A DNA stretch of 64,000 nt from Halosegnis marinus. GTDB taxonomy: Archaea; Halobacteriota; Halobacteria; Halobacteriales; Haloarculaceae. Of this stretch, positions 34,071-37,933 are shown one piece after another. The stretch lies in the NCBI RefSeq assembly GCF_029338355.1, contig NZ_CP119802.1, positions 1,798,001 to 1,862,000 on the forward strand. The letters are read 5' to 3'. The translations under genes and the position numbers were made by a program. A model generated the notes under the pieces. It made no database searches, was not told the origin of the DNA, and saw nothing but the letters and a program-made list of their open reading frames with translations. How positions within the stretch are numbered: position 1 is the stretch's first letter; the number at the start of each line of letters is the position of its first letter.

Positions 34071-34076
34071 CTAAGT
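34071..34076 (+). promoter_or_regulatory. TATA-like element of the lysine operon leader
   Basis: CTAAGT, preceded by the A-rich CACAACGA, lies 24-29 nt upstream of ATG 34100. There is no TATA-like element or Shine-Dalgarno site in the 30 nt before dapA itself (34256), so this is the best candidate promoter for the whole dapA-lysA operon. Confidence 0.5.
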
Positions 34077-34099
34077 CCGCGCGAGACGGGCGTTCGCGT

Positions 34100-34174
34100 A
34101 TGCCCCTGACCACATCCGGCACGCGGACGGCGAGCGGCCGGTGTGGCGGCGCGTTCTCGAAAGGCAAACCCTGA
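34100..34174 (+). CDS. Candidate 24-residue leader peptide of the lysine operon
   Basis: The short frame runs from ATG 34100 to TGA 34172-34174 and encodes 24 residues ending FSKGKP. Two AAA lysine codons lie four and two codons before the stop; lysine in the neighbouring genes is nearly always AAG. It begins at the predicted transcription start, so it would be translated as a leaderless mRNA, and it ends 81 nt before dapA. This is how a lysine-sensing leader peptide would look. No homologue is known to me, the two Lys codons could be coincidence, and the call rests on position, promoter and codon content. Confidence 0.45.
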   Translation: MPLTTSGTRTASGRCGGAFSKGKP

Positions 34175-34255
34175 GCGGGGCTCCCGGCGGGCGTGGCACC
34201 CCGTCGCGGGCCGTTCCGGGCACCGCCTGCAGACCACCCTTCACCCACCACACAC
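34175..34255 (+). promoter_or_regulatory. GC-rich leader between the leader ORF and dapA
   Basis: The 81 nt after the leader stop are G/C-rich with possible base pairing, for example CGGGG (34176-34180) with CCCCG (34199-34203), then end in a C/A-rich unstructured stretch before the dapA ATG. It could form alternative structures controlled by ribosomes on the leader ORF. There is no T tract, so a transcription terminator is not evident; control of dapA translation is as plausible. The remaining gap upstream (33934-34070) holds only the divergent promoters. Confidence 0.35.
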
Positions 34256-35158
34256 ATGACACACGACCCGTTCGCCGGCGCGATGCCGGCGCTCACGACG
34301 CCGTTCCACGAGGACGGCAGTATCGACTTCGAGACGCTGCGCGAGAACGTCCGGCGCGTCGAGCGCGAGGGCGTCCACGGCGTGGTCCCCGTCGGCACCA
34401 CCGGCGAGTCCGCGACGATGAGCCACGACGAACACGTCGAGGTCATCGAGGCGACCGTCGATGCCGTCGACTCGATTCCCGTGGTCGCCGGCTCCGGCTC
34501 GAACAACACGCAGGAGGCGCTCGACCTCTCGCGGCGCGCGGCCGACGCCGGCGCCGACGGCCTGCTGCTCATCTCGCCGTACTACAACACCCCCGAGCCC
34601 GCGGGCATGGAGGAGCACTTCCGCACCGTCGCCGACGCGGTGGACCTCCCGCAGGTTATCTACAACGTTCCGGGGCGCACGGGGCGCAACATCGCCGTGG
34701 AGACGGCCGAGGCGCTCGCCTCCCACGACAACATCGTCGGCTACAAGGCCGCTTCCGGCGACCTGAACCGGGTCGCGGAGGTCATCGAGCGCACCCGCCA
34801 CGAGGCGTTCGCGGTGCTCTCCGGCGACGACGCGCTCACGCTCCCCATCATGGCGATGGGCGGCCGCGGCTGTATCTCCGTCTCGGCGAACGTCGAGCCG
34901 TCGCGCACGAGCCGGATGGTCGACCTCGCGCTGGACGACGAGTTCGCGGCCGCGCGGGAACTCCACTACGAACTCGGGCCGCTGTTCCGGACCCTGTTCG
35001 TGGAGACGAACCCCATCCCGGTGAAGGAGGCGCAGGCCATCCGCGGCCACATGGACGCGACGATGCGCCCGCCGCTCTCGCGGATGGGCGACGAGAACCG
35101 CGAGCGCCTGCGCGCGGTGCTCGCCGACCTCGACGAAGCGGAGGCGACGGACGCGTGA
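34256..35158 (+). CDS. dapA: 4-hydroxy-tetrahydrodipicolinate synthase
   Basis: The 300-residue TIM-barrel enzyme condenses pyruvate with aspartate semialdehyde, the first step of the diaminopimelate route to lysine. GTTGES (residues 47-52), Tyr136 in VIYNVPGRTG and the Schiff-base Lys164 in VGYKAASGD are all present, as is LLLISPYYNTPEP. First gene of a four-gene operon, its TGA overlaps the GTG of dapB (35155-35158). The start MTHDPFAGAMPALTTPF at ATG 34256 fits the family; no TATA or Shine-Dalgarno site precedes it, which implies a leadered mRNA. Confidence 0.93.
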   Translation: MTHDPFAGAMPALTTPFHEDGSIDFETLRENVRRVEREGVHGVVPVGTTGESATMSHDEHVEVIEATVDAVDSIPVVAGSGSNNTQEALDLSRRAADAGADGLLLISPYYNTPEPAGMEEHFRTVADAVDLPQVIYNVPGRTGRNIAVETAEALASHDNIVGYKAASGDLNRVAEVIERTRHEAFAVLSGDDALTLPIMAMGGRGCISVSANVEPSRTSRMVDLALDDEFAAARELHYELGPLFRTLFVETNPIPVKEAQAIRGHMDATMRPPLSRMGDENRERLRAVLADLDEAEATDA

Positions 35159-35883
35159 GGCTCGCGGTGGCCGGCGCGACCGGGCGCACGGGGAGCGAGG
35201 TGGTCGCCGAGGCGCGCGACCGCGATCACGCGGTCGTCGCCCTCTCGCGCGACCCCGACGAGGGGGAACACGACCTCGCCGACCTCGACGCCGCGCTCGA
35301 CGCCGCCGACGCGCTCGTGGACTTCACGGTGCCCGAGGCCACCCCGGACCACGCGGCCGCGGCGGCCGACGCCGGGGTGCCCTACGTCGTCGGGACGACC
35401 GGGCTGGACGACGAGGCCGAGGCCGCGCTCGACGCCGCGGCCGGGACGGTCCCGGTCCTCGCGGCCTCGAACTTCGCGAAGGGCGTCCAGGCGCTGCTCC
35501 GGGTGGTCCGGGCGGGCGTCGAGGCCCTGCCGGAGTACGACGCCGAACTGACCGAGACGCACCACGACGGGAAGCGCGACGCCCCGTCGGGGACCGCCGT
35601 CTCCCTGCTCGACGCCATCGACGAGGCCCGCGGCGAGGCGCTCGACCGCACCTACGGCCGCGAGGGGGACCACCTCCGCGAGGCCGCCGAGGTCGGCGTC
35701 CACGTCCGCCGGGCCGGGACCGTCCGCGGGGAGCACGAGGTGCTGCTCGCGGGCGACGACGAGGTACTGACGCTGACACACCGCGCCGAGTCGCGCCGGG
35801 TCTTCGCGGCCGGCGCGGTCGACGCCGCCGAACGACTGGCCGACCGCGAGGCCGGCCGCTACGACTTCACCGACGTACTATGA
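35155..35883 (+). CDS. dapB: 4-hydroxy-tetrahydrodipicolinate reductase
   Basis: The 242-residue protein starts at GTG 35155 (RLAVAGATGRTGSEVV), a Rossmann GxxGxxG motif for NAD(P)H. VDFTVPEATPDHA, VVGTTGLDDE, ASNFAKGVQ, the catalytic ETHHDGKRDAPSGTA (His-His and Lys) and RAGTVRGEHEVLLAG define DapB. It reduces the DapA product. It overlaps dapA by GTGA and dapD by ATGA (35880-35883), so translation of the operon is coupled. Confidence 0.93.
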   Translation: MRLAVAGATGRTGSEVVAEARDRDHAVVALSRDPDEGEHDLADLDAALDAADALVDFTVPEATPDHAAAAADAGVPYVVGTTGLDDEAEAALDAAAGTVPVLAASNFAKGVQALLRVVRAGVEALPEYDAELTETHHDGKRDAPSGTAVSLLDAIDEARGEALDRTYGREGDHLREAAEVGVHVRRAGTVRGEHEVLLAGDDEVLTLTHRAESRRVFAAGAVDAAERLADREAGRYDFTDVL

Positions 35884-36698
35884 GCACGCTCGAATCCGAC
35901 GTCCGGGAGCTGTGGAACCGCTACGAGAACGACGAGTCCCCCGACGGGCTCGACACGCTGGACGACTTCCTCGATGCGCTGGAGTCGGGGGGCGTCCGCG
36001 CCGCCGAGAAGCGCGACGGCTCGTGGGAGGCGAACGACTGGGTGAAGCAGGGTATTCTGCTGAACTTCGGGCTGCGCGCCATCGAGGCACACGACCACGG
36101 GGGCGTCGCCTACCACGACGTGCTGCCGCTCCGCGACACCGCGGACCTCCCGGAACGGGGTACGCGAAACACGCCCAACGGAACCGTGGTTCGCCGGGGC
36201 GCGTACGTCGGGAGCGACGCCATCATGATGTCGCCCTCGTTCGTCAACGTGGGCGCGTACGTCGGCGACGGGACGCTCGTGGACTCGTGTGACACCGTCG
36301 GCTCCTGTGCACAGATCGGGTCGGACGTGAAGCTCGGCGCGAACACGCTCGTCGGGGGCGTCCTCGAACCCGTCGAGGACGCGCCGGTCGTCATCGAGGA
36401 CGGCGTCTCGCTCGGCGCGGGCTGTCGGGTCACTTCCGGGTTCGTCGTCGGCGAGAACTCCGTGGTCGGCGAGAACACGCTTCTCACGCCCCGCATCCCG
36501 GTGTACGACCTCGTGGAGGAGGAGGTGCTGTACGGCGAACTGCCGCCGGAGCGCCGCGCCTTCATCCGCTACGTCGAGTCGAGCGTCGGCGACCACGACC
36601 TCTTCGAGGGCGGCGCGTACAAGCCCGCCGTCGTCGCCACCCACGTCGAGGAGGAGACCCTCGAAGCCACCCGCCGGGAGGACGCGCTGCGCGAATGA
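35880..36698 (+). CDS. dapD: 2,3,4,5-tetrahydropyridine-2,6-dicarboxylate N-succinyltransferase
   Basis: The 272-residue protein has an N-terminal helical domain and a left-handed beta helix of hexapeptide repeats (GAYVGSDAIMMSPSFVNVGAY; GTLVDSCDTVGSCAQIG; LGANTLVGGVLEPV), with the DapD-type segments VRRGAYVG and VIEDGVSLGAGCRV. It acylates the DapB product, pointing to the succinylase (or acetylase) branch of DAP synthesis. Starts at ATGA with dapB and ends in ATGA with lysA (36695-36698). Confidence 0.92.
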   Translation: MSTLESDVRELWNRYENDESPDGLDTLDDFLDALESGGVRAAEKRDGSWEANDWVKQGILLNFGLRAIEAHDHGGVAYHDVLPLRDTADLPERGTRNTPNGTVVRRGAYVGSDAIMMSPSFVNVGAYVGDGTLVDSCDTVGSCAQIGSDVKLGANTLVGGVLEPVEDAPVVIEDGVSLGAGCRVTSGFVVGENSVVGENTLLTPRIPVYDLVEEEVLYGELPPERRAFIRYVESSVGDHDLFEGGAYKPAVVATHVEEETLEATRREDALRE

Positions 36699-37933
36699 GC
36701 CACGACTCGCTCCCGGTGAAGCGGCTCGCCGACTGGGACCACGAGCGCCTGCGCGACCTCGCGGCCGAGCACGGCACGCCGCTGTACGTCGCCGACCTCG
36801 ACCGCGTCGCGGCCAACTACCGCCGGTTCGCCGACGCCTTCCCGGACGCCCACGTGATGTACGCCGCGAAGGCACACACGGGGAAGGCCGTCCTCGAAAC
36901 CCTGCTCGACGCGGGCGCGGACATCGAGTGCGCGGCGTGGGGCGAACTCCACCGCGCGATGGCGGCCGGCGCGGACCCGAACACGCTCCAGTACACGGCC
37001 GTCAATCCGCCGGACGCGGACCTCGACCGCGCCGTCGAACTGAGCGAGGAGGCTCCGGGGCTCACGATTACGGGGGGCGCGCGCGACACCTTCGACCGCC
37101 TCGCGGAGCGGGGCTACGACGGGCGCGTCGCCATCCGGGTGAACCCGGGCATCGGCACCGGCCACCACGAGAAGGTCGCCACCGGGAAGGACGCGAAGTT
37201 CGGCATCCCGGCCGAACACGTCGACGAGGTGGCTGCGGATGTCGCGGAGCGGTTCGACCTCGTAGGGATTCACGCTCACATCGGAAGCGGCGTCCTGAAC
37301 GACTCGCTGGACGAGCACTGCCGCGCGGTCGGCCGGGTGGCCGACATCGCGCGCTCGGCGGCCGACGCCGCCGACACGGATCTGGAGTTCGTGGACGTGG
37401 GCGGCGGCTACGGCGTCCCCTACCGCGAGGACGAGGAACCGCTCGACATGCCGGAGGTCGGCGAGCGTATCCGCGAGGCCGTGGGCGACCTCGACGCACA
37501 GTTGAAGCTCGAACCCGGCCGCTACGTCGTCGCGGACGCCGAACTCATCCTGACCGAGGTGAACACGGTGAAGGAGGCCCCCGCCGCGACCGTCGTCGGC
37601 GTCGACGCCTCGCTCGCCACCCTCATCCGGCCCGCGATGTTCGACTCGTATCACCCCATCCGAAACGTCTCCGCGCCCGACCGCGAGCCGCGACCCGTCT
37701 CCGTCGGCGGCCCCTGCTGTACCAGCGCGGACGTGTTCTGTACCGACCGGCCGGTCGCGGAACCGGAGCGCGGCAACCTGCTCGCCATCGGCAACGCCGG
37801 CGCGTACGGCTACGAACTCGCCAGCCAGTTCCACTCGCAGCCGCGGCCCGCGGAGGTCGCGGTCGAGGGCGGCGAGGCGCGCGTCGTCCGCCGGCGCGAG
37901 ACGCTCGACGACGTGACCCGCGTCGAGCGGTAG
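36695..37933 (+). CDS. lysA: Diaminopimelate decarboxylase
   Basis: The 412-residue fold-type III PLP enzyme converts meso-diaminopimelate to lysine. The PLP Lys59 is in HVMYAAKAHTGKA; HIGSGV, DVGGGYGVPY, EPGRYVVADA and PCCTSADVFCTD with the catalytic Cys, and GNAGAYGYELASQFHSQPRP, are typical. It is the last gene of the overlapping operon. Genes for dapE, dapF and an aminotransferase, often linked to this cluster in haloarchaea, are not found here. Confidence 0.94.
   Translation: MSHDSLPVKRLADWDHERLRDLAAEHGTPLYVADLDRVAANYRRFADAFPDAHVMYAAKAHTGKAVLETLLDAGADIECAAWGELHRAMAAGADPNTLQYTAVNPPDADLDRAVELSEEAPGLTITGGARDTFDRLAERGYDGRVAIRVNPGIGTGHHEKVATGKDAKFGIPAEHVDEVAADVAERFDLVGIHAHIGSGVLNDSLDEHCRAVGRVADIARSAADAADTDLEFVDVGGGYGVPYREDEEPLDMPEVGERIREAVGDLDAQLKLEPGRYVVADAELILTEVNTVKEAPAATVVGVDASLATLIRPAMFDSYHPIRNVSAPDREPRPVSVGGPCCTSADVFCTDRPVAEPERGNLLAIGNAGAYGYELASQFHSQPRPAEVAVEGGEARVVRRRETLDDVTRVER

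Follow-up and report, generated by a model that had tools for sequence, protein, structure and literature searches.

The stretch of DNA analysed here (hereafter the window) comprises 64,000 nucleotides of the Halosegnis marinus genome (assembly of 2.8 Mb), whose closest dapA relatives are found in Halobacteria; all coordinates below are positions in this window, on the forward strand. Four open reading frames overlapping by a few bases make up the proposed regulated operon: its first gene dapA (34256..35158), with homologues across the class, dapB (35156..35883), which has a GTG start and overlaps dapA, dapD (35880..36698) and lysA (36695..37933). The names of the last three were taken from an initial reading of the letters and open frames (the sequence-only reading), supplemented by analogy with HVO_1100 for dapB and HVO_1099 for dapD (PMC8305020); the dapB name thus rests on these two sources without a family-library search.

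A TATA-like box, CTAAGT (34071..34076), whose promoter activity is only predicted, precedes a conserved open reading frame of 24 codons plus TGA (uORF, 34100..34174), which encodes MPLTTSGTRTASGRCGGAFSKGKP, starts with an ATG at 34100 that is predicted to be leaderless, and ends with TCG AAA GGC AAA CCC TGA at 34174, 81 nt before the ATG of dapA (34256). The stretch AAA GGC AAA (Lys-Gly-Lys, 34160..34168) contains the proposed control codons, with the two Lys codons at 34160-34162 and 34166-34168, and Lys is found at the same place class-wide. The uORF is followed by a conserved RNA hairpin, GGCUC.CGGCGGGCG(UGG)CACCCCGUCG.GGGCC (34179..34212), which is supported by covariation in an alignment. 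Next come a pyrimidine tract, TTCC, on the 3' side of the hairpin (34214..34217), and an unconserved spacer without a Shine-Dalgarno site (34218..34255), which varies in length among relatives. The CTAAGT box, the 24-codon ORF, its SKGKP-stop end and the 81-nt gap had all been described in the sequence-only reading and were confirmed; the conserved hairpin and the pyrimidine tract behind it had been omitted. The same reading had claimed that dapA lacks a TATA-like box and a Shine-Dalgarno site near its start, and this also held: a Shine-Dalgarno-like 4-mer within 20 nt of the dapA start was absent here and present in only 1/77 related loci, and no A+T-rich box comparable to that of the uORF was found at -33..-20 of dapA, which fits expression from a distant start.

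The upstream regions of about 80 dapA loci, from genera including Halorarius, Halogranum, Natronomonas, Halocatena, Halococcus, Haladaptatus, Halobium, Halorubrum and Halorientalis, were compared, and a uORF was called in 77 of them, with a length of 16-34 codons and either ATG (n = 59) or GTG (n = 18) as start codon. In nearly all 77 loci a TATA-like A/T-rich box was located with its first base ~29 nt upstream of the uORF start, from which a leaderless transcript is predicted. The C-terminal pattern of these leaders was K-x-K-R-x-stop, with a K-R pair close to the end in 72/77, Arg directly after the last Lys in 70/76 and Pro common at the next position. Lys was confined to the C-terminal region in 76/77 of the called uORFs, with 158 Lys among the last 12 residues vs 1 in the 1208 residues before them; in the other two frames the Lys counts were 32 and 38, and shuffles gave a mean of 14. 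The frame used for this count had been picked with the Lys content in view. In a Lys-blind repeat on 73 loci, where the uORF was called from the promoter and the start codon alone, the same stop codon was reached in 64/73 and at least two Lys were present in the last 12 residues in 58/73.

All three stop codons (TGA, TAG and TAA) were used, and AAG replaced AAA in several species, indicating that the amino acid and the stop were kept rather than a string of bases. Substitutions between close pairs were spread evenly over the codon positions of the uORF (263/342/341), and an independent small-protein gene was rejected, as purifying selection did not extend along the whole peptide and only its C-terminal end was kept; drift of the remainder is as expected for a leader peptide. 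The uORF with its Lys end exceeds chance: across the class, the ORF recurs with its Lys codons at the same position. The sequence-only reading had accepted that the lack of such an ORF in related genomes would refute it; a Lys-ended ORF is kept before dapA class-wide, so that the interpretation was not refuted on this ground. Locus L043 (genome G300) retained the ATG of the leader, had no Lys codons and had a doubtful hairpin, possibly a case of lost control. A TGA found within some dapA matches was the ordinary stop of a shorter dapA.

The claim of the sequence-only reading that AAA Lys codons are rare in this genome was also upheld, as the five neighbouring genes contained AAA once and AAG 25 times. 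Across loci, the uORFs used AAA 136 times and AAG 23 times, vs 2 and 102 times, respectively, in dapA. Isoacceptors of tRNA-Lys with the anticodons CTT and TTT are both present in the genome, and AAA would be expected to require the one with TTT; in theory, the sensitivity of such a leader is tuned by which of the synonymous control codons it uses (PMC1183508). The segment upstream of the Lys codons was A/T-rich, and TTT was enriched near the site (31/66 Phe codons vs 25/330 in dapA), suggesting that the preference for AAA involves more than a Lys signal and may in part reflect a local need for A/T.

Single-sequence folding of the window was no better than that of shuffles in this GC-rich DNA, and structure was therefore judged from the alignment only. 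RNAalifold on the 74-sequence alignment returned 11 pairs, 8 of them with compensatory changes. In a 14-pair version of the hairpin, covariation was seen on 11/14 pairs, 89.7% of the cells could pair vs 80.5% in shuffles, and 101 double-change cells were counted vs 33 in shuffles; none of 500 shuffles matched this level of pairing and double changes, and pairing dropped to 45-50% when the partners were slid. One G.U pair and the adjacent C-G pair (alignment A1 columns 116/134 and 117/133) were invariant in 74/74 hairpins, with covarying pairs around them, and the loop was GURGC in most sequences, which probably reflects selection beyond base pairing; recognition of the invariant pairs by a protein is possible. 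Behind the hairpin, positions +3 to +6 were C or T in 75-97% of 73 loci. T runs occurred there in a minority of loci (L009, L061, L048 and L076), and a consistent U-tract terminator was not found behind the hairpin; archaeal termination without a U-tract is conceivable. The spacer from the hairpin to dapA measured 37-146 nt in relatives and was unconserved.

The element that holds its distance to the hairpin is the last Lys codon, whose first base lies a median of 15 nt from it (quartiles 15-17, SD 1.45), vs an SD of 4.6 for the stop codon and 9.1 for the start codon. In three loci (L010, L056 and L081) the ORF extends into the hairpin and the last Lys codon stays in place. With its distance from the last Lys codon fixed, the hairpin would offer a target on which ribosome stalling could act. 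No signal was obtained for a downstream pairing partner of the 3' arm of the hairpin (mean z +0.33), and a four-strand switch based on such a partner was rejected; pairing of the uORF with the 5' arm was strong only in a subset of the sequences.

A covariance model of the leader (R1) was used to screen class genomes, most of the 373 matching ones not being represented in the model. The leader was matched in 373/391 haloarchaeal genomes and 83/86 genera, nearly always as a single copy, and dapA was present in 388/391; the three genomes without dapA were also without a leader match. The only strong copy in the H. marinus genome was at dapA, and further copies of the element ahead of other genes were accordingly rejected. 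A draw of 295 genomes from the phylum yielded a single match outside the class (E 0.004), which is likely a chance hit, and the leader was absent at Marine Group IV type loci (L018-L020 and L022). No match to R1 was obtained in 18/391 class genomes, several of which have dapA. Among those with dapA and no match were G042, G074, G090, G241 and G280 (genus g35), G014, G314 and G317 (genus g22), and families f5 and f11, in which the leader may be lost or merely too diverged.

Mapped leaders of Haloferax (Hfx.) volcanii contain uORFs of 15-31 codons, including those of pheS and of a tryptophan--tRNA ligase gene (PMC4983044, Table 2), for which reason the pheS and trpS leaders were inspected. In about 22/30 haloarchaeal pheS loci (L102-L131) a uORF closed by a Phe cluster (e.g. 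PGFGFFFA-stop) was found, with a T-rich box preceding the start of the ORF. Conserved segments, GGCGAAACCG and GGAACCGNTAACTGAC, were also observed between this ORF and pheS, and most pheS loci of genus g20 had no Phe leader. One trpS paralogue carried a W-R-W or W-Q-W-R-W leader in 9/9 loci (L162-L170), the ORF ending in ...ADS..AA-stop and the Trp codons being flanked by the complementary segments TCCGCTC and GAGCGGA; the other trpS paralogue had no Trp leader. No leader of the same logic was seen before trpC, hisG, leuA or thrC, with some leuA starts being uncertain. That codon and gene correspond at three unlinked places speaks for the sensing of tRNA charging.

On this comparative evidence, and with no data on regulation, the dapA leader is likely to be a lysine-responsive ribosome-mediated attenuator. 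Comparative support extends to the uORF and its Lys-specific end, to the hairpin and its fixed distance from the last Lys codon, and to the association with dapA throughout the class; that the ribosome stalls, which way the response runs and how the off step works are inferred. The proposal of the sequence-only reading, that ribosome stalling at the Lys codons controls dapA, is supported to the same extent, the stalling itself, the response to lysine and the level of output remaining inferences. In the proposed mechanism, transcription would start at or near the uORF start codon, and a ribosome would load on the leaderless 5' end and trail the RNA polymerase. When Lys-tRNA is ample, the ribosome would pass the Lys codons and reach the stop, its leading edge invading the 5' arm of the hairpin; it would then leave the RNA, and most transcripts would end before dapA or would not be usefully expressed. 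When Lys-tRNA is scarce, the ribosome would stall at the Lys codons and the hairpin would form ahead of it, a state that would let the RNA polymerase proceed into dapA-dapB-dapD-lysA.

The geometry of the leader was read against the bacterial ribosome, which covers about 12-13 nt beyond the A-site codon. With such a footprint and a Lys-hairpin spacing of 15-17 nt, a ribosome held at the last Lys codon would end just short of the hairpin and one at the stop codon would intrude into its 5' arm; hairpin formation should therefore be favoured by a stall at Lys. The hairpin is placed in the ON state because the stalled state should be ON for a biosynthetic operon, which is an inference. The output is probably at the level of transcription, i.e. 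control of premature termination, also by inference, and the off step may be either FttA-dependent or hairpin-type termination: a single hairpin assayed in Hfx. volcanii sufficed to terminate 59% of transcripts (PMC7237163), and FttA has a preference for U-rich RNA (PMC11616081), so that either could serve as the off switch. The absence of a conserved mutually exclusive structure and of a uniform U-tract, the TTT enrichment and the 18 genomes without a match count against the attenuator.

The first of the rival explanations holds that the hairpin and the pyrimidine tract form a terminator and that hairpin formation is governed by the ribosome on the uORF. It is favoured by the pyrimidine tract behind the hairpin in nearly all loci, by the T runs in some of them and by the termination obtained with a hairpin alone in the Hfx. 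volcanii test. However, stalling at the last Lys codon would free the hairpin and turn the operon off in lysine shortage, which is the wrong direction for biosynthetic genes, and the U-tract is not uniform, making this explanation unlikely. We also regard as improbable a post-transcriptional effect, in which the stalled ribosome and the hairpin govern dapA translation or mRNA stability. The long dapA leader without a Shine-Dalgarno site and the translational coupling known in Hfx. volcanii (PMC12548453) speak for it; however, a hairpin so far from dapA, across an unconserved spacer, cannot directly hide the dapA start, and it has no downstream pairing partner. An erm-type translational attenuator was rejected on similar grounds, there being no dapA Shine-Dalgarno site and the hairpin lying 37-146 nt away.

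Arrest by the nascent peptide, in which the basic tail K-x-K-R(-P), rather than hungry Lys codons, would hold up the ribosome, with free lysine as a possible ligand, is very unlikely. The frequent Arg and Pro after the last Lys agree with it, and a basic end with Pro-stop could slow release; however, the residues flanking the Lys-Arg core vary widely, unlike those of arrest peptides, which must be fixed; codon reading is suggested by the parallel Phe and Trp leaders, and the codon choice is biased to AAA. Still less likely is a protein- or RNA-binding element with an incidental ORF, for which the invariant pairs and the GURGC loop, exceeding plain pairing, and the A/T-rich segment before the Lys codons could be cited, but which needs neither in-frame Lys with AAG synonyms, nor three types of stop, nor a start at the predicted transcription start, and which has no Rfam match. 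No Rfam family reached the gathering score anywhere in the window, and a lysine riboswitch, a T-box or another Rfam RNA was rejected on this basis. Programmed -1 frameshifting, which uses a slippery heptamer ~5-9 nt before a stem-loop, was likewise rejected: a distance of ~12 nt separates the end of runs such as AAAAAAC from the stem, and a slippery heptamer is missing altogether from many leaders, among them AAAGGCAAA and AAGGCCAAG.

A bolder reading of the attenuator is that haloarchaea own a set of leaderless-uORF attenuators (Lys for dapA, Phe for pheS and Trp for one trpS paralogue), in which the stalled ribosome and the hairpin bar FttA, and FttA rather than an intrinsic terminator ends transcription. 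We lean slightly against this joint claim as a whole. If it is true, leader-peptide attenuation would be known from Archaea for the first time. In the open literature searched, no leader-peptide or ribosome-mediated attenuation in Archaea was found, subscription papers being largely outside that scope. The Hfx. volcanii uORF paper (PMC4983044) does not list dapA in its Table 2, and its sections bearing on uORFs mention neither cognate-codon content nor an attenuation model.

Leader-peptide attenuation is a textbook bacterial mechanism, and the comparative evidence makes it likely that the dapA leader works like bacterial ribosome-mediated attenuation. As in the bacterial trp, his, leu and pheST attenuators (PMC1183508), a short leader ORF with cognate codons is followed directly by an RNA structure, with the control codon about one ribosome half-width upstream. 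Unlike them, it is archaeal, has a predicted leaderless start, concerns lysine and dapA, and shows a single conserved hairpin with neither a conserved competing strand nor a U-tract terminator; strict trp-type membership is not claimed, because the U-tract terminator is absent and the pairing of the uORF with the 5' arm is found in a subset only. Bacteria typically control lysine genes by the lysine riboswitch (L box), which is also a cis-acting leader of lysine genes, whereas the signal of the dapA leader is an ORF, inferred to be translated.

A further parallel is the Rho-linked control of the tnaC type, where a ribosome at the end of the leader could bar the termination factor, as may occur here; in archaea, FttA is regarded as equivalent to Rho (PMC12548453, PMC11616081), and its action at this leader is inferred. 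tnaC senses free tryptophan through its nascent peptide and induces catabolism, whereas the dapA leader serves a biosynthetic operon with plain Lys codons. A class-wide, covarying and codon-matched leader suggests that the coupling of ribosome and RNA polymerase in archaea is tight enough for amino-acid sensing, and it puts attenuation-type control on leaderless mRNAs. Being short and tractable, with the laboratory strain Hfx. volcanii at hand, the dapA leader offers a direct way to probe how coupling, termination and FttA work in Archaea, and with the Phe and Trp leaders it allows three parallel tests of the idea.
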